A stretch of DNA of 64,000 nucleotides from Pseudomonas entomophila (GTDB lineage Bacteria > Pseudomonadota > Gammaproteobacteria > Pseudomonadales > Pseudomonadaceae). The notes beneath the pieces are model-generated. The model was not told where the DNA came from. It did not search any database and saw only the letters and a list, made by a program, of their open reading frames with translations. The stretch is taken from positions 2,567,501 through 2,631,500 of the forward strand of contig NZ_CP070982.1 of the NCBI RefSeq assembly GCF_018417595.1. The letters run 5' to 3'. This document shows positions 11,206 to 30,388 of this stretch, piece after piece. Made by a program: the position numbers and the translations under genes. Numbering within the stretch: the first letter of the stretch is position 1; every line of letters starts with the position of its first letter.

Positions 11206-11341
11206 CTCGGACCTTTTGGCGTCGCGATCTCTAACCGGGCGCCCACGACGGGCAAGCGGTAATTAACGCCTCGGCCGCGGCGCCACTGCTTCTACCGCCA
11301 GGGGAACTGAGACGGCAATTCCTAGTAATTATGTATTATTT

Positions 11342-11358
11342 AATACGTTGAACGTATT
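11342..11358. promoter_or_regulatory. Palindromic operator candidate before the KfrA-like gene
   Basis: AATACGTT-G-AACGTATT is a perfect 8-bp inverted repeat around a single G, in an AT-rich stretch 73 bp before the KfrA-like start. Plasmid KfrA proteins bind palindromes in their own promoters and repress themselves, so an autoregulatory site is likely (inference). Confidence 0.5.
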
Positions 11359-11430
11359 ATTTATTAGTTTTTGTCGAGATTAGATCGGATAAGATTCAAT
11401 TATCAGACCTAAGGCAGCGGAGGACAGGGC

Positions 11431-12423
11431 ATGGCAGTAGGCGTACCGGAAAACCACGTATTCGCTGCAGCGGATGCGGTCTTAGCCCGCGGTGAACGGC
11501 CGACGGTGGAACGGGTGCGCCTGGAACTGGGTCGAGGCAGTCCGGCGCGGGTCGGTGCCTTGCTCGACCAATGGTGGGAGCAACTGGCGGAGCGCTTGCG
11601 CGGCGAAACGCGCTTGCCGGACCTGCCAGCGGAGCTGGCGCAAGCCTTCGTGGCAATTTGGCAGCAGGCCATCACTTTGGCCCAGGGCGTGGCTGAACAG
11701 GGGCTGGCCAGTCAGCGGCAGGTGCTCACGGAAGAGCGGGAAGCGCTGGTCGCGTTGGAAGCCCGCGCCCGTCTGGACGTTGCCCAAGCACGCCAGCAGA
11801 CGGGAGAGGCGGTGAGTGCGCGACAACGCGCAGAAACCCGTCTGGCTGACTTGGAGCAACTGCTAGCCCAGCGACTAGCGCAGATCGATGATCTGCGTGG
11901 CCAACGCGACGAGCTGTTGGCTCAGCGCAACGAGGCGCGCGGACAGGTCGTAAACCTCCAGCAGCAGGTTCACGACGCCCGGGTGCAAGCGGAGCAGGCG
12001 CGTGAAGAGCAGCAGCGCTACACCCGCGAGGTTGAAGATCGCGCTTATCGGGAAATTGACCGTACCCGGGAAGAGAACAAAGGCTTGACGCTGCAGTTGA
12101 CGGAGAGCAGCGGCAAACTGCAGGTGATGCAGCAAGCTTTGACGACGAGCCAAGGGGAATTGAGTGCAGCGCGTGAGCAACGCAGCAGCGCCGAGCGGCT
12201 ATCGCGGACCGCAATTGAGCAGTTGGAGCAGGTACGGACGACCTCGCTGCAGCTGGATGAGCAGCGGCAAGTCCTGCAGGAGCGAGTGCAAGTCCTGTAC
12301 GGCGAGTTGGCTGATGCACAGCGCAGCGCGGTGGCGCAGCAAGCGCGCGCCGACACCCTGGAGACGCAGCTCTCGCAGTTGCGGCAGACATTGCAAAGTA
12401 AGCATCAGCGCACTCGACCCTGA
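11431..12423 (+). CDS. KfrA-like DNA-binding coiled-coil protein
   Basis: 330 aa. Residues about 5-55 form the KfrA N-terminal DNA-binding domain: 'AAADAVLARGERPTVERVRL' followed by a 'GRGSPARVGALLDQWWEQL' helix. The rest, to residue about 325, is a long Gln/Arg/Glu-rich coiled coil with heptads and few prolines. The ATG at 11431 follows GGAGG. KfrA proteins are plasmid transcriptional autoregulators with nucleoid- or partition-related roles; chromosomal copies often mark islands. It is followed 81 bp later by a KAP NTPase gene on the same strand, suggesting a pair. Confidence 0.8.
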   Translation: MAVGVPENHVFAAADAVLARGERPTVERVRLELGRGSPARVGALLDQWWEQLAERLRGETRLPDLPAELAQAFVAIWQQAITLAQGVAEQGLASQRQVLTEEREALVALEARARLDVAQARQQTGEAVSARQRAETRLADLEQLLAQRLAQIDDLRGQRDELLAQRNEARGQVVNLQQQVHDARVQAEQAREEQQRYTREVEDRAYREIDRTREENKGLTLQLTESSGKLQVMQQALTTSQGELSAAREQRSSAERLSRTAIEQLEQVRTTSLQLDEQRQVLQERVQVLYGELADAQRSAVAQQARADTLETQLSQLRQTLQSKHQRTRP

Positions 12424-12504
12424 GGCGCCGACTGCCGACCTACCCCGTCCGCGGCTCGCAGATGCTGTGCGTCGTTCCATGCCACCTTGTTCCAGGAGCT
12501 GTTG

Positions 12505-14775
12505 ATGAACCACGATAACCTGCAGTTTGCCCACGATAGGCCGATCGCTCGGCAACAAGACGACCGGCTGGATCGAGCCGACTTTGCTCAACGCCTGGCA
12601 TGGGCTGTCAGCTCCTGGAAGAACCAGGAAAGCCTGGTCATTAGCCTTACCGGCAGTTGGGGAAGCGGCAAAAGCTCGATTAAAAACATGACTCTAGAGC
12701 AGTTGGCGAGCATTCAAGGTTGTCAGGTGATCGAGTTCAACCCCTGGCAGTGGGCCGGCCAGGACAAGCTAAGTAGTGCCTTCTTCGAGGAGATCTCTCG
12801 GGCAGTTCAGCGCCAGGACTCAAGCAAGGATGACAAGCAACTTGCCAAAGTGCTTCGGCGCTATGAGCAGCGCCTGAACGCGGGCGTCAGTGTCCTCAGC
12901 CATACCGCCAAATGGGCGCCGATCCTGCTCGGCTCGGCCGTGATGACCACCGCCCTGGGCAGCATTGCGCAAGGCACTACTGCACAGGTGACCATTTGGA
13001 CGCTCAGTGCGGCCAGCTGGCTGGGGAGTATCGCCCCATGGCTGAAACAAGGGGCTGAATGGTGTCTCAAAAAGGCGAACATCCTTGATCAGCAGGCCAA
13101 GGACAACGAGATGACCCTCCAGCAGATTCGCGCAGAACTGCAACAGTTGCTCAGCAAGCGCCAGCAACCGCTGTTGATTGTCCTCGATGACCTGGACCGG
13201 CTGTCCACCGAGCAGCTGAAAGATATGTTCCAATTGGTCAAGGCGCACATGGATTTCGCCAATGTGGTGTTCCTCTTGTTGTTCCAGCGTGACACGGTCG
13301 AGCAAGGCCTTGCCCGTGCAGGGTTCGACGGCGCGGATTACCTGGAGAAAATCATCCAGGTACCGTTCAGCGTACCGGCGATCTCGACCAATCAGCTGGA
13401 GGAGATCCTGCTCAGCAGGTTGAATGACATCCTAGCCAGTGAACCGCAACTGCAACAACGCTTCGACAAGGCGTATTGGGGGCAGGTGTTCCAGCGCGGG
13501 ATGCGCCCTTTTTTTGGCAACTTGCGCCATGTCTATCGCTACGCTTCCACCTTGGCGTTTCATTGCCGGCTGCTTCGTGGTACCGAGGTGGCGGAGATCA
13601 ATGCGGTCGATTTGTTTGCCCTGGAGTGCCTGCGGATCTTCGCACCGGAAACCTACGCAGCGATGCCGCGCTACAAAATACTGCTCACCGGCAGCGAGCC
13701 CTACGCTCGACAGGATGAAGCGCAACGCAACCGTATTATTGAGGTCATTGACCAACTGGTGAAGCTTGCCCCGGAGGTTCATCAGCCGGCCACACGCCAG
13801 TTGCTCCAGGAAATGTTCCCGACCCTGGACTGGGTGTTCACTCGAACGCAGCACGATCAACCCATCCAGCTCCGCTGGCTCATCGACTCGCGGGTCTGCT
13901 GCGAGGAAGTGTTTGATCGCTATTTCGAACTGTCGATTCCCACGCAGGAGCTTCCTAACTCGCTGTTGCACGAGTTCGCCCGGCGGATCACCGAGCCAGA
14001 GGACTTCGCCAGCTTACTGTGCACATTCGAAGATCACCGACAGGCGGGAATTCTGCAGCGCTTGCTGGGCCTTGTGGACGAGTTCCCGCTCGATCAGTCA
14101 CCGGCCGTAGTGCAATCTTTGCTACGGGCCGGTGAGCAAGTGGGCCGGCGCATGTCGCACACCCACTGGTCGCCGCGCGAGCAAGTCGTACGCTTGCTGC
14201 GGCTGTTCCTGAAGCGCCACGCGCAAGAGAGTACGCGCAGCCAGCTGGTTGTCGAGGCGTTTCACGCAGTGCCCAGCCTGCCCGTGGCCGACCAATTGCT
14301 CGCCGCAGACTATGCGCTGCGCCGCAGAGGCGATATCGGCATGTTCGACGATGCGGGGCTGGAGCAACTGAAAAACTTGTACCTGGGTACCGTACGCCAG
14401 GTGGCAAGTGCAGACCCTGATGCGTTTCTGGGTGACGAAGACCTATCTTCCTATCTCACGGACCTCAACCGCTACGGCACCGGCGGCGATGAGGGGCGCG
14501 GCTGGGTGGAGCAGCACGTCAACTCACCGAGCCGATTCCTCCAGTTCGCACGGGGATTTACCAGTTTTCAAAGCTCGTACACCGGCGGCAATACGACTTA
14601 TACGGCCTACATTTCGCCAAGTACCTTGGAATACATGATGGGGCTCAGTCGCTGCGCTGAGTGGGTTGAGCGGTTGGAATCGATGGGATTGGGTGACGAC
14701 GATTCGGAAACGCTAGCGCTGGTCAAGGACGCTTTGTCGCGTCATGCACAAAGTGAGGCCACCATACAAGAGTGA
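12505..14775 (+). CDS. KAP-family P-loop NTPase
   Basis: About 756 aa from the ATG at 12505 (CAGGAG at 12492-12497); the longer ATG at 12487 lacks a ribosome site. Walker A is GSWGSGKSS at residues 50-58. Two hydrophobic segments follow (AVMTTALGSIAQG and WTLSAASWLGSIAPWL), then Walker B LLIVLDDLDRLS near residue 230. Membrane helices inserted between the Walker motifs are the hallmark of the KAP family. The C-terminal 350 residues are helical with no named domain. KAP NTPases include PifA of plasmid F, which excludes phage T7, and QatA of the Qatuor antiphage system. No QatB, QatC or QatD gene is adjacent, so a KfrA-KAP defence or plasmid-maintenance unit is an inference. Confidence 0.82.
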   Translation: MNHDNLQFAHDRPIARQQDDRLDRADFAQRLAWAVSSWKNQESLVISLTGSWGSGKSSIKNMTLEQLASIQGCQVIEFNPWQWAGQDKLSSAFFEEISRAVQRQDSSKDDKQLAKVLRRYEQRLNAGVSVLSHTAKWAPILLGSAVMTTALGSIAQGTTAQVTIWTLSAASWLGSIAPWLKQGAEWCLKKANILDQQAKDNEMTLQQIRAELQQLLSKRQQPLLIVLDDLDRLSTEQLKDMFQLVKAHMDFANVVFLLLFQRDTVEQGLARAGFDGADYLEKIIQVPFSVPAISTNQLEEILLSRLNDILASEPQLQQRFDKAYWGQVFQRGMRPFFGNLRHVYRYASTLAFHCRLLRGTEVAEINAVDLFALECLRIFAPETYAAMPRYKILLTGSEPYARQDEAQRNRIIEVIDQLVKLAPEVHQPATRQLLQEMFPTLDWVFTRTQHDQPIQLRWLIDSRVCCEEVFDRYFELSIPTQELPNSLLHEFARRITEPEDFASLLCTFEDHRQAGILQRLLGLVDEFPLDQSPAVVQSLLRAGEQVGRRMSHTHWSPREQVVRLLRLFLKRHAQESTRSQLVVEAFHAVPSLPVADQLLAADYALRRRGDIGMFDDAGLEQLKNLYLGTVRQVASADPDAFLGDEDLSSYLTDLNRYGTGGDEGRGWVEQHVNSPSRFLQFARGFTSFQSSYTGGNTTYTAYISPSTLEYMMGLSRCAEWVERLESMGLGDDDSETLALVKDALSRHAQSEATIQE

Positions 14776-15730: not shown

Positions 15731-16063
15731 TGCGGTGGCCGCGGCGAGCGACCAACGGTGGAGAAGGCAGCACTGCCGGTCGAGCTGCAAGCACGCGTGG
15801 TGTCGGCCACATGGCACTCTCGAATGACTCGATCTCCAATAGAGGGATACGACAGTTGGTCGAAGCATGAACAAATACGTGCCGCTGTAACACGCGCCGG
15901 CATCACTCGTTGGTTGGCAATCGATGACGACCCTAATCACAGTTGGCCAGCCCGCGACTATCGTCTGATACGTTGCGAATCCACCATGGGGCTAGGCAGC
16001 GAAGCTACTCAGCTGGAGTTGCGTGCCAAGTTGCAGGCGCTGGTAGACACCTCTGATGGCTAG
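15731..16063 (+). pseudogene. C-terminal fragment of a HAD-domain protein
   Basis: The open frame from about 15731 (GTG at 15758) encodes about 100 aa. The region WSKHEQIRAAVTRAGITRWL, then AIDDDPNHSW, then 'YRLIRCESTMGLG', matches the C-terminal half of the HAD-like domain in 'Swiss army knife' RNA-repair-associated proteins, where the final Asp pair binds metal. The N-terminal half with the nucleophile Asp is absent: the frame is stopped by TAA at 15725-15727. No ribosome site precedes the GTG. A truncated leftover is likelier than a functional small protein. Confidence 0.5.
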
Positions 16064-16762: not shown

Positions 16763-17230
16763 ATGCCTACAGCCTCCATCCCCGCATATAAGGCAGTTTC
16801 ACCCCTGCTCGCAAGAAACGCTGTGCCGAGAACAGGTACCGACAATCTGCCAGGCTATTACTCGACTCAGCACGATATGTGGGTTGTTGAGACACCTAAT
16901 GGTACTCAGCCCATTATTGCTCGTGGAGCGCTGGACGAGCTTCTCACCAAGACGAAAGTCAATAGTGAAGAGGATGACGACTCGTTCGTGACGCTCGAAA
17001 CGCTCACAAAAACATACTCCAAGCCCGAAAGTGACGACGATCTCACCTCCAATGGGCAGGCCTCTCATCTGCTCCAACTGATGACCAAGACTGATACGGT
17101 GATCGAAGAGGATGACCCGGGCGACAGCTACGCCATGCTGGAGCTGATGACCAAAACCGAGGCAGAGCTTGAGCACGATGATCCAGGGGATATGCAATTC
17201 GGCCTCGATGAGCGCTTTTACCTGGATTGA
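16763..17230 (+). CDS. Candidate graspetide (omega-ester/amide RiPP) precursor
   Basis: 155 aa. Residues 1-60 look like a leader, with PGYYSTQHDMWVVETPNG at about 30-47. Residues 60-143 hold four repeats with identical internal spacing: TKT at 62-64, 82-84, 108-110 and 130-132, each followed after four residues by E-x-D-D (EEDD, ESDD, EEDD, EHDD). Repeats 3 and 4 extend to DDPGD. Clustered Thr/Lys followed at fixed distance by Glu/Asp is what ATP-grasp macrocyclases of the microviridin and plesiocin type join as side-chain esters or amides. A short tail (MQFGLDERFYLD) follows the last repeat. The ATP-grasp ligase gene begins 11 bp after the stop. There is no Cys and no signal peptide. Modification is inferred, not seen. 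The fixed register argues against a merely acidic repeat protein. Confidence 0.78.
   Translation: MPTASIPAYKAVSPLLARNAVPRTGTDNLPGYYSTQHDMWVVETPNGTQPIIARGALDELLTKTKVNSEEDDDSFVTLETLTKTYSKPESDDDLTSNGQASHLLQLMTKTDTVIEEDDPGDSYAMLELMTKTEAELEHDDPGDMQFGLDERFYLD
16943..17191 (+). repeat. Four core-peptide repeats in the RiPP precursor
   Basis: Codons 61-143 of the precursor encode four units of consensus (L/M)TKT-x4-E-x-D-D. Unit spacing is 20, 26 and 22 residues between TKT motifs, so the linkers vary while the T-K-T to acid distance does not. Units 3 and 4 are closest to each other (both LMTKT...DDPGD), suggesting a recent duplication. Confidence 0.85.
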
Positions 17231-17241
17231 GGCTTTCCACC

Positions 17242-18201
17242 ATGTTTCTGCTGGTCACTAATCGCCGCGACATCACGATGGACTTCGTCGTCGCAGAGCT
17301 CCAACGGCGAGGCTTGCCTTATTTCAGGCTTAACACTGAACTGCTCCCTCTGTCCCGAAGCACGTTGGGCGTGAGTGCCATGGATGATTGGGCAATTGAG
17401 CTGGAGGGGAAACGAATTACGGGGCGTGACATTACCGCTGCATATTTTCGCAGGCCTGGCGCGCCACAAGCACCTGAGGCAGTCATGGATACGGGTGAGC
17501 GTGCCTACATTGAAGCGGAATGGAGTAGTTTCCTGAAGAGTCTCTATTTCCGATTGGAGGGTTGCTGGTTCAGTGACCCTACTCAGATTTTTCTGGCTGA
17601 AGATAAACCGCGACAGCTCCTAGTTGCGCGGCATCTCGGTTTCAATATTCCTGATACCGCCATCACTAACGAGTTGAAGCCGGCCGAGTTACTGACAGCA
17701 GAGGGAAGGGCAATTGGGAAGCCTCTGCGGCAAGCGGTATTGCCGGGCGTGCTGGAGAAGGTGATGTTCACCTCACGACTGCAGCCATTGACCGAAGCAG
17801 ATGCGCCTGCCCTTGGCCTTGCCCCGTTGATCATTCAGGCTGAAGTGCCAAAAAAATATGATGTTCGTGTCACTGTCGTTGGTGCTCAGGTGTTCGCCAC
17901 CGCCATCTGGTCTCAGGATAACGAAGAAACCGAAGTTGACTGGCGACGGGGTAGCCGCCCGGACTTACGACACGAGGCCATTAGTTTGCCCGATCAAGTG
18001 GCTGCTCAATGTCGAGAGTTGGTAAACCGTTTGAACCTGCGGTATGGCGCTATTGATCTGGTATGCGACACAGATGAAAAGCTGTGGTTTTTGGAGATCA
18101 ATCCAAACGGTCAATGGGCGTGGATCGAAAATCAAACCGGATACCCAATTGCTGCGGCAATCGTTGATGAGCTGGAGATGATCCGAAATGGCCCGCTTTA
18201 A
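17242..18201 (+). CDS. MvdC/MvdD-like ATP-grasp peptide ligase
   Basis: 319 aa from the ATG at 17242, preceded by TTGAGG; a TTG at 17227 overlapping the precursor stop is less likely. Order: N-terminal pre-ATP-grasp domain (MFLLVTNRRDITMDFVVAEL, then a PYFRLNTE strand), a conserved FLAEDKPRQLLVARHLGFNI segment (118-136), an ATP-binding Lys candidate at K160 (AIGKPL), the AEVPKKYDVRVTVVG strand pair (200-214), D272 (AIDLV), and the metal-binding FLEINPNGQW with E285 and N287. This is the layout of graspetide macrocyclases. It should consume ATP to form acyl-phosphates on precursor Glu/Asp and join them to Thr or Lys. Only one ligase is present, so a single enzyme would act on all repeats. Its stop overlaps the next gene by 14 bp. 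Confidence 0.85.
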   Translation: MFLLVTNRRDITMDFVVAELQRRGLPYFRLNTELLPLSRSTLGVSAMDDWAIELEGKRITGRDITAAYFRRPGAPQAPEAVMDTGERAYIEAEWSSFLKSLYFRLEGCWFSDPTQIFLAEDKPRQLLVARHLGFNIPDTAITNELKPAELLTAEGRAIGKPLRQAVLPGVLEKVMFTSRLQPLTEADAPALGLAPLIIQAEVPKKYDVRVTVVGAQVFATAIWSQDNEETEVDWRRGSRPDLRHEAISLPDQVAAQCRELVNRLNLRYGAIDLVCDTDEKLWFLEINPNGQWAWIENQTGYPIAAAIVDELEMIRNGPL

Positions 18202-18862
18202 TAGGCAGTTGCTTTGGCCGACACTGGCTTCACCTACGCCTGAACAGGTTGTGGCAAATGACCAAATGCGCGCCGGGTGGAAAGCATCCGTCAACGACGG
18301 CAATTGGGATCTGCAGAGCGAAATAGCGTTGGAAGAGGCGCGCCGGATGTACGACGCCGAACAGGAGCGTCGTAAAGGTGCTGACACGAAAGCAGGGGTC
18401 TATCTTGCGGCAGTAACCGCACTCATCCCAGTGTTGGTGTCGTTATTGCCGACCCTTTGGAGCGACAAGACCAGTAAAGCCCTTGGCGCCCTGTCGCTAG
18501 TAGTGTTTGCGCTTGCAGTGGCGTATGTCCTTCGAGCGGGGTACAGCGCGTTCTGCGTACTGCGCGTGAGCAATGCCCACACGGTGGGGGCCGGCGACAT
18601 TTCGCGTTGCTGGAGTACGCAACAACCCGCCGCGAGCTTGGCCAAGTCTATCGCTATCAAAGTCATCGAAAACTACCCAGGCAACAACGCCAAGGTTAGC
18701 CATATCAAGCTGGCGCATGCCTACCTCCTGCGAGCGTTTTTCATTTTCACCGTGCTGCTGGCTGTACAGGCGCTGTGGCCTTGCGCGACATGGGTAATAG
18801 AAGAGGTTTCCAAGCTGATGGCACCTGATGTGAGACAACCCCTAGTGATGTGTTTTTCCTGA
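18188..18862 (+). CDS. Membrane protein of the graspetide-like cluster
   Basis: 224 aa, overlapping the ligase gene by 14 bp, so translation is coupled. Residues 1-60 are cytoplasmic and charged; hydrophobic segments lie near 70-91 (VYLAAVTALIPVLVSLLPTL), 99-118 and 178-200. The first helix is preceded by EEARRMYDAEQERRKGADTK, an amphipathic charged helix. This layout recalls small helical membrane effectors of bacterial conflict systems such as SLATT and Pycsar-TM proteins; that is a resemblance, not an identification. It is not an ABC exporter, MFS pump, peptidase or acetyltransferase, the usual graspetide partners. Possible roles: immunity protein, membrane effector regulated by the modified peptide, or exporter. 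Confidence 0.65.
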   Translation: MARFNRQLLWPTLASPTPEQVVANDQMRAGWKASVNDGNWDLQSEIALEEARRMYDAEQERRKGADTKAGVYLAAVTALIPVLVSLLPTLWSDKTSKALGALSLVVFALAVAYVLRAGYSAFCVLRVSNAHTVGAGDISRCWSTQQPAASLAKSIAIKVIENYPGNNAKVSHIKLAHAYLLRAFFIFTVLLAVQALWPCATWVIEEVSKLMAPDVRQPLVMCFS

Positions 18863-18964: not shown

Positions 18965-20866
18965 ATGTATTTACGTACGCTGGATGTTCAGGGCTTCAAA
19001 TGCTTTGGGGAGCCGTTCTCGATCGAACTCCATGACGGCCTGAACGTTCTGGTCGGCGAAAACGGGGCCGGCAAGACTGGCGTCGTCAGCGCGATACGAC
19101 AGCTCTTCAATGACTCCGAGTCGGGCAAACGGGTTATCAGTGAGCGTGATTTCTACAGGGGATTTGGCAAGGATGATGTCGCGGCTGAGGAGATCAAAAT
19201 TCAGGCGACCTTCTCCGGTCTGGACAAAAACGACGTCATTGCGTTTGACACCTGGTGCGGCAACCAGCCCGAGGCAACACTCACGTTCACGGCCCTAAAC
19301 CAGGAGTCTCGTGGTCGGTTCAAACACCATACTTACGGTGGCCACGAGTACACCAAAGCGTTTGAAACCGAGAAATTGGACTATGTCCACTGCGTTTACC
19401 TCCCACCGTTACGTGACGCTGAAGTCAAGCTGCGAGAAGGGCGCCAGTCTCGCTTGGCGCGCCTGCTCAAAGCACTCTGCCGCAAGGACATAGACGCTGC
19501 TAGAAAAGCCCGCGTTCCGCATCCGCTTGAGCAGCATGTCGGAGACTTCAATCGCGAGCTGTCAGAGAGCGACAAGTTCGCGATCAAAGCAGCTAACCAG
19601 CGAATTGGTGAAAGTCTAAAAGCTGCCCTGGGCGCTCACCTGTCTCAGGGCACAATGATCCAGTTCTCGGAGGTGAGCTTCTCCCGAATCGTGGAAGGGC
19701 TGAGGCTCCTTTACTTCCCGGATCTGAGCAAAGCTGACGCCGCTCAATTTCGGGCGCTGGAAGAGAACAGTCTGGGCTACAACAACCTTCTGTACATCGC
19801 CTCCATTCTGGCAGAGCTGACCTACGAAGCAGATGAAGGGCAGGGCGAGAAAACGTACCTACGCCTGCTGTTGATCGAGGAGCCGGAGGCGCACCTTCAT
19901 CCCCAGCTTCAGCTCCGGCTCCTTCGGCACCTCAAGAAGGCCGCTGAGGCTCGCGGAATGCAGGTGATCATAACCACCCACTCGACTGTGATCACCTCTG
20001 CGGTATCTGTAGATCACGTTATCCACCTGTCCAACCTGAGCCGCCCCAAGGCAGTGCCCCTCAGGAAATGCGGCCTGCCCGAGCAAAGCCGACACTTTGT
20101 GGACAGATGGCTTGATGCTACGAAGTCCAACCTGCTCTTCGCCAAAGGCACGATACTAGTCGAGGGCATAGCGGAGGCCATGGTCTTGCCAGCGCTCGCC
20201 AAGATCGTACTGCAGCCCTTCGGCGACGGGCGAAATTCCCTGGACGACTACGGTGTGTCGGTCATCAATCTGGGCGGAATCTATTTCAACCACTTCATGC
20301 AGCTGTTCTGCAACGTCAAAGCCGAGCATCAAGGTGAAAACATCCCTGTCAGGTGCTCAGGATTGACCGACAACGATCCTCCAAAGTCAGTGATTGAGGA
20401 CAATAGAGCGGGTGGTCAAAAGAACGTTCCATTTCTGCCCCATGCAGACAACTGCATCGTCGGCAACAACCCGGCGCTGGCTTTGCAGAAGCACATAGGC
20501 CTGTCAGAGTTTGGACGGTTGTTTGCGGGGAAGTACAAAACCTTCGAGTACGACATTGCAATGGAAGGCGACAACCTCAAGACAATGCTGATCGTCGCTG
20601 CTGGCCTCTGGCAGGCCCAAGATGGGCCGGTGGTCAAAGGTCTAAAAGCAGACGCGGAACTCGATTTTGCTGCTATGACCTCCGCCCAGCGGGCGCCTTA
20701 CGCCGCCGCATTACTGGATCGTATTGACTCTGATGACATTGGCAAGGGCATCTACGCTCAAACCTTCGCCGACGTACTAGAGGCTAATGGAGCCGGCTTT
20801 GTGGTACCGGTGTACATCCGCCAGGCCATCCTCTGGGCTTGCGGTCTGGAAGAGGGTGCGGCCTGA
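18965..20866 (+). CDS. OLD-family ATP-dependent endonuclease, GajA-like
   Basis: 633 aa from the ATG at 18965 (AGAAGGG six bases before); GTG 18902 and ATG 18959 are in-frame alternatives. An ABC-type ATPase comes first, with Walker A GENGAGKT at residues 31-38 after the typical LRTLDVQGFKCFGEPFSIEL start, and Walker B/D-loop LLIEEPEAHLHPQLQLRLLR near residue 305. A TOPRIM nuclease domain follows: LVEGIAEAMVLPALAKI carries the metal-binding Glu near residue 400 and GLTDNDPPKS the Asp-x-Asp pair. The stop overlaps the start of a UvrD-type helicase gene (TGATG). That pairing defines class 2 OLD proteins and the Gabija antiphage system (GajA nicks DNA and is held back by nucleotides). It is somewhat longer than the Bacillus GajA. 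Confidence 0.82.
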   Translation: MYLRTLDVQGFKCFGEPFSIELHDGLNVLVGENGAGKTGVVSAIRQLFNDSESGKRVISERDFYRGFGKDDVAAEEIKIQATFSGLDKNDVIAFDTWCGNQPEATLTFTALNQESRGRFKHHTYGGHEYTKAFETEKLDYVHCVYLPPLRDAEVKLREGRQSRLARLLKALCRKDIDAARKARVPHPLEQHVGDFNRELSESDKFAIKAANQRIGESLKAALGAHLSQGTMIQFSEVSFSRIVEGLRLLYFPDLSKADAAQFRALEENSLGYNNLLYIASILAELTYEADEGQGEKTYLRLLLIEEPEAHLHPQLQLRLLRHLKKAAEARGMQVIITTHSTVITSAVSVDHVIHLSNLSRPKAVPLRKCGLPEQSRHFVDRWLDATKSNLLFAKGTILVEGIAEAMVLPALAKIVLQPFGDGRNSLDDYGVSVINLGGIYFNHFMQLFCNVKAEHQGENIPVRCSGLTDNDPPKSVIEDNRAGGQKNVPFLPHADNCIVGNNPALALQKHIGLSEFGRLFAGKYKTFEYDIAMEGDNLKTMLIVAAGLWQAQDGPVVKGLKADAELDFAAMTSAQRAPYAAALLDRIDSDDIGKGIYAQTFADVLEANGAGFVVPVYIRQAILWACGLEEGAA

Positions 20867-22659
20867 TGGCGGCAGAAGATAAGGCAGCCCAAGTGGGTGC
20901 AGCCGACATCGAATTCACCGACCGGCAGCAGAGATACATTGATGCACCGTTGGATCGGCATGTGTACCTGAGAGCCTGCCCTGGTAGCGGCAAAACTGAG
21001 GTCGTGGCCGCCAAGGTATGCAAGATTATCCAGGAGTGGAACCATCACCCTTCCGGAATCGCTTTGCTCACCTTTCTCAATAGTGCTACCGAAGAGCTCC
21101 AGAGCAGAGTTTATAAGTACCTGCGCGAGCCATTGGGCTTGCCGCACTACATCTCCACCTTCGATAGTTTCGTGCTAACACACCTGCTTTCGAGTATCGC
21201 CAGCGAGATCACGGGCTTTCAAGGCCGGGATGGCGACTTCCGTATTCGGATCATCGACAAGTCCGCTGATATCTACCACACGCGCATCAAGATCTGTGGA
21301 CGCACCGTATCAGCCTGTCGATACAACTACGATAAAGGATCCAAACGCTACGTCTTTTCGACCAACGACCGGAAGTGGGATAACGAAGCCAACCTCGCCC
21401 AACAGGACGAGGCCGACCAGAAGGCACTGTTGGCGACCAAAAAACGGCTTTGGGCCGCTGGCTTTGCAACCTACGGTGACATTGATATTCTCGCTTTGGT
21501 CGGGATGCAAGAAGAAAAATTCAAAGATTACTTCTCGCGTATTGCACGCCGATTCCCGTTGATCATCGTTGATGAGTGCCAAGACTTGTCGGCAGAGCAG
21601 CTTTTGATCGTCAAAAGACTGAGCCTACTAGGCGTGAAATTCCATTTTGTAGGTGACCTTAATCAGTCAATTTATGGTTTCAGGAAATCGAATCCTGCAA
21701 ACGTGCGTCGGCGCATGGAGGAGCTTGGCTTTGAGGAGTACGTCCTCAACGAGAATTGGCGAAGTGGTCAAGCCATTGTAGATGTGTGTTCCAACATTCT
21801 TCAATCCGACCGTGTGGTGGGAAATCCTCGAATCGCTTCAGTAAAGCCAAGGGTCGTCGAGTATCAGAACTGCCCGTCGGAGGTGCTTCCAGCCATTCGA
21901 GAAATGAGCCTGATACATGACAAGGTGGTGGTCGTCGCGCGCGGACATACAACACTTCAGCGCTTACGTACTGGTAGAGCTTTCGAGGGCATCGAGCTGC
22001 TGGCGCTGGCCTGCATAAACCTCAAAGCAGGCAGGTTGACAGACATAGCGCAATGCCTGGAAACATTCGGTAAGTGGCTGGCGGCCCGGCTAGAACTGCA
22101 GGTGACGAAAGCAGGCCCTTACTGCCCTATGGATATTGAGTCAAAACTGACGTGGCGTATATTCCTTCACGACGGTCTCCAATTCTTGGTGGAACACGGC
22201 GTCGGAGATGGTAATCAGACTTGGTCGGACTGGGCCCGGGCAGCAAAAATTGCGCTTGGAAAGCTGCCAGATCAAACATTCGTACCTGTAGAGGTGCGTG
22301 AGCATTTAGAAGGCCTGAAAGGCCTTAATTTGCGAGCCCGTTCTGGGCAGGGGAAGATGCTGATCTCCGAAAGGTTGGTCGGGGTACCCGATGTGGTCGC
22401 CCAACGTGACTGCCTGCGTTTCGAGACGATTCACGGGGTCAAGGGTGAAACACACGACGTGACCGTGGTTGTATCGTCACAGAAACCGGGCGTGCATCAG
22501 TCGCACTGGAAGGACTGGCTGCGTGACCGGACTTCCGAAGCTGCGAGATTTGCCTATGTGGCGAGCTCGCGGCCGAAGCATGTGCTGATTTGGGCAGTGA
22601 AAAAATTGAAGGCTGAAGATCGGCTGGTGCTTGAGGGCCTGGGATTCGAGCTCCCGTAG
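20866..22659 (+). CDS. UvrD/Rep-type superfamily 1 helicase, GajB-like
   Basis: 597 aa. The Q motif is near residues 18-22 (FTDRQQRYI), Walker A is ACPGSGKTE near 37-45, motif II is LIIVDECQDLS near 235, motif III FHFVGDLNQSIYGFRKS near 262, and the last helicase motif FAYVASSRPKHVLIW near 565. RecA-like fold 1 and fold 2 are both present, with short 1B/2B inserts. The ATG at 20866 overlaps the nuclease stop. With the OLD gene it makes a complete two-gene Gabija-like module; GajB is thought to sense DNA ends and deplete nucleotides, which activates GajA. A generic repair helicase is less likely given the coupling. Confidence 0.82.
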   Translation: MAAEDKAAQVGAADIEFTDRQQRYIDAPLDRHVYLRACPGSGKTEVVAAKVCKIIQEWNHHPSGIALLTFLNSATEELQSRVYKYLREPLGLPHYISTFDSFVLTHLLSSIASEITGFQGRDGDFRIRIIDKSADIYHTRIKICGRTVSACRYNYDKGSKRYVFSTNDRKWDNEANLAQQDEADQKALLATKKRLWAAGFATYGDIDILALVGMQEEKFKDYFSRIARRFPLIIVDECQDLSAEQLLIVKRLSLLGVKFHFVGDLNQSIYGFRKSNPANVRRRMEELGFEEYVLNENWRSGQAIVDVCSNILQSDRVVGNPRIASVKPRVVEYQNCPSEVLPAIREMSLIHDKVVVVARGHTTLQRLRTGRAFEGIELLALACINLKAGRLTDIAQCLETFGKWLAARLELQVTKAGPYCPMDIESKLTWRIFLHDGLQFLVEHGVGDGNQTWSDWARAAKIALGKLPDQTFVPVEVREHLEGLKGLNLRARSGQGKMLISERLVGVPDVVAQRDCLRFETIHGVKGETHDVTVVVSSQKPGVHQSHWKDWLRDRTSEAARFAYVASSRPKHVLIWAVKKLKAEDRLVLEGLGFELP

Positions 22660-25892: not shown

Positions 25893-27311
25893 ATGCTCTG
25901 GGCCTGCATCCTGCTGCCGCAGCTGGCGCTGGACACCGTCCTGCGCGAGCGTGACGACCCCGACACGCCGCTGGTATTGATCGACGGGCCGACCCAGCGC
26001 CGCGTGCTGCGGGCGGTCAACCCGGCCGCCAGCCAGCTGGGCCTGCGTGCCGGGCAGAGCCTGACCGCCGCCCGCGCCCTGGCCGATGGCTTCACCTGCG
26101 TCGAAGTCGATCCGGCGCGTATCGAGCAGGTGCAGCAGTTGCTGGCCGCCTGGGCCTACCGGTTCAGTGCCCAGGTCAGCCTGCATTATCCTCGCGCACT
26201 GTTGCTGGAAGTGGGCTCGAGCTTGCAGCTGTTCGGGCCCTGGCCGTTGTTCGAGGCGCAGCTACGCCAGGAACTGGCTGCCTTGGGGCTGCGCCAGCGC
26301 ATCGTGCTGGCCAGCAATCCGGTGGCCGCGCGCATGCTCGCCAACGCTCACGATGGTCTGGCCGTGGCCAGCCCCGATGAGACCCGCGCCGCCGTGTCGA
26401 ACCTGCCCATCGACCGCGCCGGCCTGCCGCCGGAGGTCAGCACCACGCTGGCGCGCATGGGCCTGCGGCGGCTGGGGGAGGTGCTCGCGCTGCCGCGCGA
26501 GGCGCTGGCCAGGCGCTTCAGCGCCCAGGTTCAGGTGCACCTGGACCAGTTGCTCGGCCTGCGCACAATGGGGCTGGGCTTCTACCAGCCGCCCGACCGT
26601 TTCGAGGCGCGGCTGGAGCTGAACTTCGATGTCGAATCACACCAGGCGCTGTTGTTCCCCCTGCGCCGCCTGCTCACCGACCTGGCCGCCTTCCTGGCCG
26701 GGCGGGATTGCGGCGTGCAGCGTTTCGAGCTGCATCTGGAGCACGCCGAAGGCCCGGCCACGCGGCTCACGGTCGGCCTGCTGGCCGCCGAGCGCGACGC
26801 GGCGATGCTCTTCGAACTGGCCCGGGGGCGGCTGGAGCCGCTGCGCATCCCGGCTCCTGTGCGCAACCTGCGCCTGGTCGCCGCGGACCTGCCGGCCTTC
26901 GTGCCCCAGCACCGGGCCTTGTTCGACCCGCGTGCCCAGCAGGCCCAACCCTGGGAGCAGTTGCGCGAGCGGTTACGGGCGCGACTGGGCGACGAAGCGG
27001 TCAAGGGCCTGCGCGCCGAGGCCGATCATCGCCCCGAGTGCGCCTGGCAAGGGGCGTGGCAGGAGGGCGCGGGCCGGCTGGTCGTCGCCCCGGGCAGCCG
27101 CCCTGGCTGGTTGTTGCCGGAGCCACGGGCCTTGCCTGAAGCCGGCCTGCGCCTGCTCGGCAATGCCGAGCGCATCGAGTCCGGCTGGTGGGACGGCGGC
27201 GATGTGCGCCGCGACTACTACCGCATCGAGACCCGCGACGGCCTGTGCGGCTGGGCCTACCGTGACCTGGCCCAGCCCGGGCCGCTGTGGCTGCAGGGCT
27301 GGTTCGCATGA
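25893..27311 (+). CDS. imuB: Y-family polymerase-like protein ImuB
   Basis: 472 aa. The N-terminus ([20 protein letters not shown]) aligns with the first strand of Y-family polymerases, but the catalytic acidic residues and steric-gate pattern are not in place, as is known for ImuB, which is a non-catalytic adaptor. Palm, finger and helix-hairpin-helix regions follow ([20 protein letters not shown]), then a little-finger-like domain. ImuB binds the sliding clamp and DnaE2. It overlaps dnaE2 by four bases (ATGA). Confidence 0.92.
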
Positions 27312-30300
27312 GCACGCCGGGCTATGCCGAGCTGCACTGCCTGTCGAACTTCAGTTTCCAGCGCGGCGCCTCCAGCGCCGACGAACTGTTCCGACGGGCC
27401 CGCGAGCAGGGCTACCAGGCCCTGGCGATCACCGACGAGTGCACGCTGGCCGGCATCGTCCGGGCCTGGCAGGCCGCCAAGGCGCATGAGTTGCGGTTGA
27501 TCATCGGTAGCGAGGTGCAGGTGCATCAGGGGCCCAAGCTGGTGCTGCTGGTGCAGGATCTGCGCGGCTACCAGAACCTCTGCGCCTTGATCACTCGCGC
27601 TCGGCGCCGGGCACGCAAGGGCAGTTACCAGTTGCTCGGCGAGGACCTCGAGGCTCATCACCAGGGCCTGCTGGCGTTGTGGGTCGCGGCTCCTGGCGAC
27701 CAGCCGGGGTCCGGGCCTTGGTTGCGCACGCTGTTCGGCGAGCGCCTGTGGCTGGCGGCGCACCTGCACCGTGGTGCCGACGATCAGGCCCGGCTGGCGT
27801 GGCTGCGTGCGCAGGGCCTGCGCCTCGATGTGCCACTGGTGGCCTGCGGCGACGTGCACATGCATGCCCGTGGCCGCCGCGCCCTGCAGGATTGCATGAC
27901 CGCCATCCGCGCCCATTGCAGCGTGGCCGAGGCGGGCGGCCTGCTGTTCGCCAACGGCGAGCGCCACCTGCGCCCGCTCGACCAGCTGCGGGAGCTGTAC
28001 CCCGCACCACTGCTGGACGAGACGCTGAATATCGCCCGGCGGTGCACCTTCGATCTCTCGCAACTGAAATACCGGTACCCCCGCGAACTGGTGCCGGAAG
28101 GTCACAGCCCCGCCAGTTGGTTAAGGGTGCTGTGCGAGCAGGGCCTGCCCGGGCGCTGGCCCGACGGCCCGAGCGACAAGGTGCGCGCGGTGCTGGACAA
28201 GGAGCTGGCGTTGATCGAGGAGCTGGGCTACGAAAGCTACTTCCTCACCGTCCACGACATTGTCGCGTTCGCCCGCCGCCAGCGCATCCTGTGCCAGGGA
28301 CGGGGGTCGGCGGCCAACTCGGTGGTGTGCTTCGTGCTGGGCATCACCGAACTCGACCCCATGGTGCACCGCCTGCTGTTCGAGCGCTTTCTGTCCCGCG
28401 AGCGCAACGAGCCGCCGGATATCGACGTGGACTTCGAGCATGACCGCCGCGAAGAAGTGATCCAGTACGTGTTCAGCCGCTATGGCCGGCACCGGGCCGC
28501 GCTCACCGCCGTGGTCAGCAGCTACCACGCCGCCGGCGCGGTGCGCGACGTGGCGCGGGCGCTGGGGCTGCCGGCCGACCAGGTGGACGCCCTGGCCAAG
28601 TGCTGTGGGCGCTGGAGCGACCGTATCCCCGACGCTCAACGCCTGGCCGAGGCCGGTTTCGATGGGCAGAGCCCGTCGTTGCGGCGCATCCTGGTGCTGG
28701 CCGGCGAGCTGATCGGTTTCCCCCGGCACTTGTCGCAGCACCCCGGTGGCTTCGTCATCAGCGAGCAGCCCCTCGACCAGCTGGTGCCGGTGGAGAACGC
28801 GACGATGGAGGCGCGCACGGTGATCCAGTGGGACAAGGACGACCTGGACATGGTCGGCCTGCTCAAGGTCGACGTGCTCGCCCTCGGCATGCTCAGCGCC
28901 CTGCGCCGCTGTTTCGACCTGCTGTACCGGCACCGGGGGATCGAGCTCACCCTCGCCAGCATCCCGCCGGACGACCCGGCCACCTACGCGATGATCGGTC
29001 GCGCCGAAACCATGGGCGTGTTCCAGATCGAATCGCGGGCGCAGATGGCCATGTTGCCCAGGTTGCGCCCGGAGAACTTCTACGACCTGGTGATCGAGGT
29101 GGCGATCGTGCGCCCGGGGCCGATCCAGGGCGACATGGTTCACCCGTATCTGCGCCGTCGCCTCAGGCAGGAGCCGGTGACCTACCCGTCGGAAGAGCTC
29201 AGGGAGGTGTTCCAGCGCACCTTGGGTGTGCCGTTGTTCCAGGAGCAGGTGATGGAGCTGGCCATGGTCGCCGCCGACTACACCCCCGGCGAGGCCGACC
29301 AGTTGCGCCGCAGCATGGCCGCCTGGAAACGCCATGGCGGCCTTGAGCCGCATCGGCAACGGCTGGTCTCGGGCATGCTGCGCAACGGTTACGAGCTGGC
29401 CTTTGCCGAGCGCATCTTCGAGCAGATCAAGGGCTTTGGCAGCTACGGTTTCCCCGAGTCCCACGCCGCCAGCTTCGCCCTGCTGTGCTATGCCAGCAGT
29501 TGGCTGAAATGCCATCAGCCGGCGATCTTCACCTGCGCGCTGGTCAACAGCTGGCCCATGGGCTTCTACAGCCCCGACCAGCTGTTGCAGGAGGCGCGGC
29601 GGCAGGGCATCGAGGTGCGCCCGGTGGATGTGCTGCACAGTGACTGGGACTGCACCCTGGAGCCGGTGGGCGAGGGCGGCCTGGCCATTCGCCTGGGCTT
29701 GCGCCAGGTGCGGGGCTTCAGCGAGGCGGATGCCCGACGCCTGGAGCAGGCGCGGGCGCTGCGGCCCTGGCGCGATGTCGAGGACCTGTGCCTGCGCGTC
29801 GAGCTCGACAGCCGCGCCCGCGGGCGCCTGGCCGATGCCGGAGCGCTGCGGGCGCTGGCCGGCAACCGCCACCAGGCGCGCTGGCAGGTGGCGGCGGTGC
29901 AGGCGCAGCTGCCATTATTCGCCCAGGTCGAGCCGGCCCCGGAGCCGGTGGTGATGCTGCCGGCTCCCAGCGTGGCGCAGGACCTGCACGCCGACTACGT
30001 CACCCTGGGCACCACCCTGGGGCCCCACCCGCTGACCCTGCTGCGTTCACGGCTGCGGGCACTGGGCTGTCGCAGCTCAGGGGAACTGGCGGGTGTCGAG
30101 GACGGCGACAACATCGCCGTGGCCGGGCTGGTGGTCGGGCGCCAGCGGCCGCAGACGGCCAGTGGCGTGACCTTCGTCACCCTCGAGGATGAGCACGGCA
30201 TGGTCAACGTGGTGGTCTGGCGCGACCTGGCCGAGCGCCAGCGGCGGGCGCTGGTGGGGGCACGGTTGCTCAAGGTCAGCGGGCGCCTGGAGCAGGAAAG

Positions 30301-30388
30301 TGGCGTGCGCCACCTGATTGCCCGGCGGCTGGAGGATATCAGCCCGTTGCTGCAGGGGCTGGAGGTGCACAGCCGCGATTTTCACTGA
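27308..30388 (+). CDS. dnaE2: Error-prone DNA polymerase DnaE2
   Basis: 1026 aa from the ATG at 27308, which overlaps the imuB stop. The PHP domain is at the N-terminus ([20 protein letters not shown], then [10 protein letters not shown]). The polymerase active-site Asp pair lies in [16 protein letters not shown] near residue 375, and [11 protein letters not shown] marks the fingers. An OB fold is at the C-terminus ([19 protein letters not shown]). The length is typical of DnaE2, shorter than replicative DnaE1. It carries out damage-induced mutagenic synthesis with ImuA and ImuB. Confidence 0.96.

Follow-up and report, generated by a model that had tools for sequence, protein, structure and literature searches.

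A mobile three-gene cassette of a graspetide-type precursor, an ATP-grasp ligase, and a small membrane protein, with a proposed role in phage conflict

Graspetide gene clusters, including those of the GRASP_SAV_5884 (TIGR04187) type, have in common an ATP-grasp ligase, a precursor gene directly upstream of it, a P-h-h leader, and donor and acceptor residues in the core. Microviridin clusters combine two ligases with a TxKYPSD core, and the core motif of plesiocin is TTx4EE. To our knowledge, many graspetide groups are without a known natural role, and we know of no intracellular signaling role of a graspetide so far. Among defense systems, Pycsar pairs a ligand maker, a pyrimidine cyclase, with a three-helix membrane protein as effector, and in Panoptes a ligand restrains the membrane effector OptE (passages of PMC12657218). 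Here we describe a three-gene cassette of about 2.1 kb (positions 16763-18862) in a stretch of 64,000 nucleotides from Pseudomonas entomophila (NZ_CP070982.1, positions 2,567,501 to 2,631,500; hereafter, the window). The cassette has a graspetide-type precursor and ligase, followed by a membrane protein gene, as listed below.

16763..17230, + strand: graspetide-type precursor, 155 aa (leader and four repeat units); an open reading frame (ORF) with a relative in each of 21 cassettes
17242..18201, + strand: ATP-grasp ligase of the graspetide synthetase type, 319 aa; matches to TIGR04187, MvdC, and MvdD, relatives in the PDB, and catalytic residues
18188..18862, + strand: three-helix membrane protein, proposed effector, 224 aa, with a W10-P11 motif, R61, K68, N162, and N167; PADLOC PycTM match and AlphaFold2 model

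A preliminary description, made from the letters of this stretch alone, had proposed a new graspetide cluster of three co-directional genes. The ORF coordinates confirm this arrangement on the + strand, with a gap of 11 bp between precursor and ligase and an overlap of 14 bp between the ligase and membrane protein ORFs. The ligase starts at ATG 17242 (319 aa); if it started instead at an in-frame TTG (17227), it would have 324 aa. The source genome (5.96 Mb, a single contig) contains one match to the cassette ligase.

The four Thr-rich, acidic repeats noted earlier in the 155-aa precursor are exact TKT-x4-E-x-D-D units, located as follows.

16799..16831, + strand: leader motif SPLLARNAVPR, from the precursor alignment
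16946..16978, + strand: core unit 1, TKTKVNSEEDD, residue 62
17006..17038, + strand: core unit 2, TKTYSKPESDD, residue 82
17084..17116, + strand: core unit 3, TKTDTVIEEDD, residue 108
17150..17182, + strand: core unit 4, TKTEAELEHDD, residue 130

When the residues of the window precursor were shuffled, one such unit appeared in 6 of 100,000 shuffles and two units in none. The leader pattern of the precursor family, P-F/L-L-x-x-F-A-x-P-R, fits the graspetide leader motif Phhx(1,2)h given in a passage of PMC8939145, and in the proteobacterial precursors a G-Y/H-Y stretch and then M-W-V follow the leader motif. In a set of 19 precursors (without L009 and L010, which are near-identical to the window, and L011, which is cut by a contig end), the strict TKTx4ExDD pattern occurs 53 times, with at least one unit in 18 of the 19, and a relaxed pattern yields 67 units; the gut-phage precursor L041 has relaxed units only. 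Each precursor carries two to six copies of the motif or a close variant. The window precursor thus adjoins the ligase with a leader recognition motif, Ser/Thr/Lys donors, and Asp/Glu acceptors, as in graspetide clusters.

The ligase belongs to the graspetide superfamily (MvdC/MvdD/SAV_5884) and retains its catalytic residues: K160, D272, E285, and N287, which had been called intact, are invariant in an alignment of 13 sequences (the window and 12 relatives with 39 to 97% identity). Against NCBIfam, the ligase scored 239.8 bits with TIGR04187 (GRASP_SAV_5884), 174.7 with MvdC, 150.5 with MvdD, 98.1 with the grasp-with-spasm model, and 43.2 with RimK; all four graspetide models (TIGR04187, TIGR04185, TIGR04184, and TIGR04192) match it, each below its curated cutoff. 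Its relatives of solved structure in the PDB are AMdnB, MdnB, MdnC, the MvdD-like 9bou, CdnC, and PsnB. The earlier label of MvdC/MvdD-like therefore holds for the superfamily only; an identity as MvdC or MvdD is ruled out by the higher TIGR04187 score and by scores under the curated cutoffs of 425 bits (MvdC) and 475 bits (MvdD). Taken together, these sequence matches support a graspetide-type pair of precursor and ligase in the window.

The pair differs from the described graspetide types. Microviridin clusters share the ligase superfamily, and the microviridin leader PFFARFL is similar to PFLARFA of the Escherichia coli copies of the cassette, but membership would call for two ligases, MvdC and MvdD, scoring above their cutoffs, and the window genome has one ligase match. 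Both TxKYPSD and TTx4EE were absent from all 21 precursors in a motif scan, which excludes a plesiocin-type (group 2) assignment and bears out the earlier remark that the core is unlike those of plesiocin and microviridin. Plesiocin and corallotide (group 15) also have several repeated cores per precursor; the plesiocin core is TTx4EE where the cassette has TKTx4ExDD, and the corallotide cluster has a 2-oxoglutarate oxygenase where the cassette has its membrane partner. Relative to TIGR04187-type and wider graspetide clusters, the cassette is set apart by the TKTx4ExDD core in two to six copies, by an overlapping PycTM-like membrane gene, and by its location in defense islands and phages, and no methyltransferase, protease, or exporter is seen in the cassette unit. 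Passages of PMC8939145 list, as clusters 18 and 40, two uncharacterized families of membrane proteins in the vicinity of graspetide ligases, and the cassette may fall inside one of them.

The three genes belong together, and the three-helix protein of the preliminary description is a real partner of the precursor/ligase pair. In 21 of 21 cassettes, the gene immediately before the ligase is a precursor relative, the ligase and membrane protein ORFs overlap by 4 to 20 bp in all 21 loci, and every membrane protein match in the plasmid collection (5/5) and in the phage collection (1/1) lies directly behind a same-strand ligase match. Pairwise distances across 19 loci (without L009 and L010) were correlated between ligase and membrane protein (r = 0.94; Mantel p 0.0001) and between ligase and precursor (0.88), a correlation that is also expected from shared ancestry alone. 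L011 stands outside the 21 cassettes, L030 duplicates L042, and a second Croceicoccus plasmid (H3) is outside the locus counts. For the distances and for the ratio of nonsynonymous to synonymous substitutions (dN/dS), start codons were chosen by hand and the L021 and L022 precursors were cut at arbitrary points. The ratio lay at 0.06 to 0.24 in the 11 of 18 gene-and-pair sets for which it was computable, including the six sets that compare the window with L009 and L010; dS was not computable for the three genes of window-L012, the three of L029-L042, and the L021-L022 ligase, and the remaining two L021-L022 genes gave very high values. The precursors, with dN/dS of 0.06 to 0.09 in four pairs, are under strong purifying selection.

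Complete cassettes were found at 21 loci that are scattered across chromosomes, plasmids, and viruses. They comprise seven Pseudomonas chromosomes and one P. aeruginosa plasmid; other proteobacterial loci in Shewanella, two Vibrio, and plasmids of Croceicoccus, Sinorhizobium, and Agrobacterium; two Bacteroidota loci (Allomuricauda and Mesonia); and five viral loci, namely, a phage-labeled record from human feces, the IMG/VR contigs L027, L028, and L029, and Leptospira phage LE1 (L042). The cassette is rare in Pseudomonas, with an intact copy in 4 of 296 sampled genomes and a membrane protein match in 10. A DNA search, which would miss more distant copies, recovered it from 2 of 5,426 complete E. 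coli genomes; in these copies (L082, with the cassette at 11288-13393, and L083), the ligase is 55 to 56% and the membrane protein 35% identical, and each precursor has the leader PFLARFATER and three strict units.

The membrane protein has three predicted membrane helices. An AlphaFold2 model built with 17 sequences (mean predicted local distance difference test score, 82.9) is all-helical, with long helices predicted at residues 44-91, 97-126, and 147-211. Hallmarks of the family are a W-P motif near the N terminus and the conserved residues R61, K68, N162, and N167; the exceptions among 22 members are W10 and N162 in L040 and N167 in L023 and L041. At E<=0.01, the PADLOC PycTM models PDLC02364, PDLC02365, and PDLC02363 match 12, 10, and 5 of these 22 proteins, respectively, and the only other PADLOC families matched are two 2TM effector models, by one member each. 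We regard the relationship to PycTM as a weak lead from profile similarity. Related membrane proteins also stand behind more distant graspetide-type ligases: among the fetched loci, a profile search found them in L024 (E 3e-12), L036 (1e-8), and L031 (1.5e-4), with no match in L025, L032-L035, L043, or L044. The L024 precursor has the leader RPFITRFATP and one TRITRVENETTDDE core.

The natural-product view of the preliminary description was incomplete in that it missed the surroundings of the cassette: in the window, Gabija lies directly downstream and a PifA-like KAP NTPase upstream.

18965..20866, + strand: GajA (Gabija), context outside the cassette; PADLOC 933 bits, with the ORF opening at GTG 18902 and the profile match beginning at 18965
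20839..22659, + strand: GajB (Gabija), context outside the cassette; PADLOC 1049.5 bits
12487..14775, + strand: KAP-family NTPase, PifA-like, context; PF07693 150.5 bits and PADLOC PifA 218 bits

A PADLOC match at E<=1e-5 occurs beside 11 of 13 loci, counting the window and 12 further loci from which 30 neighbors were chosen by hand and not at random (including the divergent cousin L043, which lacks TKT units); L009, L010, L027-L029, L037-L039, L041, L042, L082, and L083 are not part of these counts. Nineteen of the 30 neighbors matched at this threshold, and three were weak (L014 ZacB, L017 restriction-like, and L022 REase_II). For the control, only the genome of the window was sampled, at 20 spaced stretches with the longest open frame taken from each; 1 of these 20 genes matched, and marginally so (SspA, E 9e-6). 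The contrast between 11 of 13 loci and 1 of 20 genes is an indication of an association with defense genes, and co-localization with known defense genes, among the neighbors chosen, recurs across loci. Gabija genes near the cassette have four different best models (PDLC00096 in the window, PDLC00098 in L011, PDLC00101 in L020, and PDLC00063 in L043), which argues that the association is not one inherited island. Other PADLOC neighbors are PifA-like (L021), PDC-S39 (L022), Tmn and reverse transcriptase (RT)-associated SLATT (L015), PDC-M01A/PtuA-like (L040), and the weak ZacB in L014, and Pfam adds putAbiC beside L021, HEPN/RES beside L022, and RES beside L016. In Shewanella schlegeliana (L013:2817-9746), HEC-08 and genes of a type I-F CRISPR-associated transposon (CAST; a Cas8/5f fusion and TniQ) adjoin the cassette, which is perhaps transposon cargo. 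In Mesonia oceanica (L017:7524-15011), PADLOC placed Shedu upstream and two ThsB-type TIR genes and a caspase-like gene downstream; the downstream genes resemble a Thoeris-type locus with a caspase effector. On Agrobacterium tumefaciens pAt1 (L043:7741-16882), a more distant ATP-grasp gene overlaps that of a multihelix protein, near a SIR2 protein and Gabija; the small upstream ORF there has no TKT units, and the membrane protein falls outside our membrane profile.

In the IMG/VR contigs, the cassette lies among or near virion genes. In L027, tail protein (phrog_52), tape measure, and sheath genes are on one side, and an ORF without a PHROG match, followed further out by a primase, is on the other; the L029 cassette is near a baseplate wedge gene, that of L028 has an internal virion protein at a distance of about 5 kb, and in Leptospira phage LE1 a ParB-like gene is close by. 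These placements resemble the pattern reported in passages of PMC9122126, in which P2-like and other phages carry small hotspots of antiphage systems flanked by conserved genes. That phage contigs, plasmids, and defense islands carry the cassette, and do so in more than one phylum, suggests phage conflict in preference to a secreted natural product.

Two Pseudomonas species (G263 and G273) have lone membrane genes, both intact (200 and 213 aa) and sharing one syntenic site, with neither precursor nor ligase beside them; in G263 a short scar of the ligase C terminus lies just upstream. Position 167 is H and Q in these orphans (L078:5414-6055 and L023:10139-10741, both reverse complement), and the cassette member L041 also deviates there. 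The orphans speak against a peptide that is always needed to keep the protein harmless and fit a protein that stays inert unless acted on by the peptide, though they could also be inactive or unexpressed. Decayed copies occur as well: in P. rubra (L018:2930-3446; also L005 and L026), only fragments of the ligase C terminus and the membrane protein N terminus remain, and in G169 (L079:5445-5912, reverse complement) the membrane gene contains stops. The P. rubra fragments adjoin an ORF that by eye resembles a recombinase.

We propose that the cassette is a mobile unit in which an intracellular graspetide gates a membrane effector, in antiphage defense or superinfection exclusion, and we give this reading about an even chance. 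The ligase would recognize the precursor leader and link Thr to Glu or Asp side chains in each TKTx4ExDD unit, as family chemistry and the conserved residues suggest. Since two Thr and one Lys stand opposite three acidic residues in each unit, our guess, on the same grounds, is that there are probably two ester links per unit, which would give a string of small acidic hairpins; a compulsory lactam is disfavored, as another residue takes the place of the core Lys in some of the relaxed units in L038, L040, and L041. With no dedicated protease or exporter seen in the cassette, the peptide probably remains cytoplasmic and may as a ligand gate the co-translated, Pycsar-like inner-membrane protein. 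A phage that disturbs or triggers this gating would cause the membrane protein to damage the membrane and abort infection. An activating peptide is slightly favored over a restraining one, given the two Pseudomonas species in which the membrane gene is intact and ligase and precursor are missing. More tentative, and in our estimate somewhat short of an even chance, is the specific proposal that a macrocyclized multihairpin graspetide takes the place of a cyclic-nucleotide second messenger and directly switches a Pycsar-like effector upon phage infection.

With Pycsar, the cassette shares a three-helix membrane protein (here with weak PycTM profile matches), the layout of ligand maker and effector, and a location in defense islands. 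Pycsar has a pyrimidine cyclase, however, and none was found among the three cassette genes and the five other window genes scanned, the proposed ligand here being a peptide; for comparison, L067 has a PycTM-plus-cyclase pair, with the cyclase named by eye. Panoptes may share the logic of a constitutively made ligand that controls a membrane effector, but its ligand maker is mCpol and OptE has a beta-barrel nucleotide-binding domain, whereas the cassette protein is predicted to be all-helical.

Several observations weigh against gating of a membrane effector in defense. The PycTM match of the window protein is weak even though it is the best of the family (E 2.7e-6), Pfam gave nothing above cutoff for this protein, hhalign against two individual PycTM-type proteins gave probabilities of about 1% or less, and no match stood out in structure searches. 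On the side of context, the neighbors behind the PADLOC counts were hand-picked, those counts cover a subset of loci, and the control comes from one genome, as stated above; the proteins scanned from L012 (two) and L016 (four) had no PADLOC match, the L037 and L039 cassettes lie among metabolic genes, and hitchhikers also travel in defense islands. The orphans could mean that the membrane protein has a peptide-independent function. Finally, some cassettes may depart from the three-gene form: the membrane gene of L040 is overlapped at its end by an ORF of 146 aa, and that of L041 is followed, 4 bp on, by one of 106 aa.

Other readings share part of this evidence. The graspetides of assigned activity in passages of PMC13097080 (microviridin and plesiocin) are protease inhibitors, and peptide transport was guessed, in a passage of PMC8939145, for a different uncharacterized membrane family in thuringinin loci, so that the cassette might make a secreted graspetide (bacteriocin or protease inhibitor) with the membrane protein serving for its export or for immunity. 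Secretion would be in keeping with a GG pair, a possible peptidase site, that 5 of 21 precursors (L013, L014, L015, L027, and L040) have within or close to the leader, but the other 16 have no GG, save for L038, which has one at residue 167. At three predicted helices, the membrane protein is a small one, and no transporter model scores above cutoff for the window protein. Moreover, when the two E. coli copies are counted with the 21, 17 of the 23 cassettes have no same-strand ORF of at least 60 aa starting between 30 bp before and 60 bp after the end of the membrane gene, the exceptions being Gabija in the window, L009, and L010 and unknown ORFs in L039, L040, and L041. A C39 peptidase or RiPP (ribosomally synthesized and posttranslationally modified peptide) exporter is annotated beside none of L037-L040, L082, and L083, with the caveat of incomplete plasmid tables; an M48 metalloprotease is encoded about 6 kb away on the opposite strand in L040, and amino acid ABC transporters are present in L037 and L039. 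Given also the strong purifying selection on the precursors and carriage by phages, we consider secretion unlikely.

An addiction or toxin-antitoxin module, in which the modified peptide neutralizes a membrane toxin and stabilizes mobile elements with no direct role in phage defense, would agree with carriage on plasmids, phage contigs, and islands, with an antitoxin-like gene first and a toxin-like gene last, and with the restrained membrane effector known from Panoptes (in the passages of PMC12657218 already cited). However, two species retain an intact membrane ORF with neither peptide nor ligase, and other defense genes are recurrently nearby, which makes this a distinctly unlikely account. 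The same orphans tell against a membrane protein that is a scaffold or partner for the ligase, like MirC for the rosaritide synthetase, with the role of the peptide lying elsewhere: the membrane genes persist without the ligase, and PycTM-like matches are not expected of a scaffold. Even so, gene overlap and correlated divergence fit a complex, and partner-dependent graspetide synthetases exist (passages of PMC13097080); we rate the scaffold as quite improbable. Least probable is a metabolite cluster that merely hitchhikes with defense genes; islands do gather unrelated genes, and L037 and L039 show the cassette in metabolic company, but it turns up repeatedly alongside different defense systems in genera far apart, and unrelated phage contigs have it next to virion genes.

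If the gating of a membrane effector by the peptide is correct, it would be, as far as we know, the first intracellular signaling role for a graspetide, and the cassette would represent a peptide-gated branch of bacterial immunity that occurs in two phyla and, through a phage, in connection with a third. A cassette that defends cells would give a modified-peptide class a biological function and bacterial immunity a new kind of signal, and a peptide shown to gate immunity would make it more than a graspetide variant. Being compact, native to two E. coli genomes, and present in phages and defense islands, the cassette has a role that is open to standard phage assays. Among the literature matches listed, no graspetide in phage defense is described, the main graspetide group tables lying outside this comparison, and no paper has an ATP-grasp protein together with Gabija. 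RiPP families co-expressed with defense-related genes in ocean data are reported in PMC11118758, and the cassette is absent from the passages concerned.

Several neighbors stand apart from these subjects. In both E. coli copies, hxsDBCA, a His-Xaa-Ser maturation system of the radical S-adenosylmethionine (SAM) type, runs in the same direction (L082:7872-11269 and L083:7872-11269), and the cassette begins 18 bp past hxsA; a relaxase gene is in the region, a UvrD-helicase gene follows on the opposite strand, and in L083 nan and fim genes are nearby. P. fluorescens PfAR1 (L012:3677-9258) is a second case in which another peptide-modification-like cluster adjoins the cassette; lined up ahead of it there are genes for a radical-SAM protein (PF04055) and a GNAT protein and two genes of unknown kind. 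In the window, a 101-aa ORF (15758-16063) matches only the C-terminal part of HAD_SAK_2 (PF18143, positions 63-137 of 139) and is perhaps a remnant, and to the right of the Gabija genes are two long ORFs (25893-30388) that look like ImuB and DnaE2.

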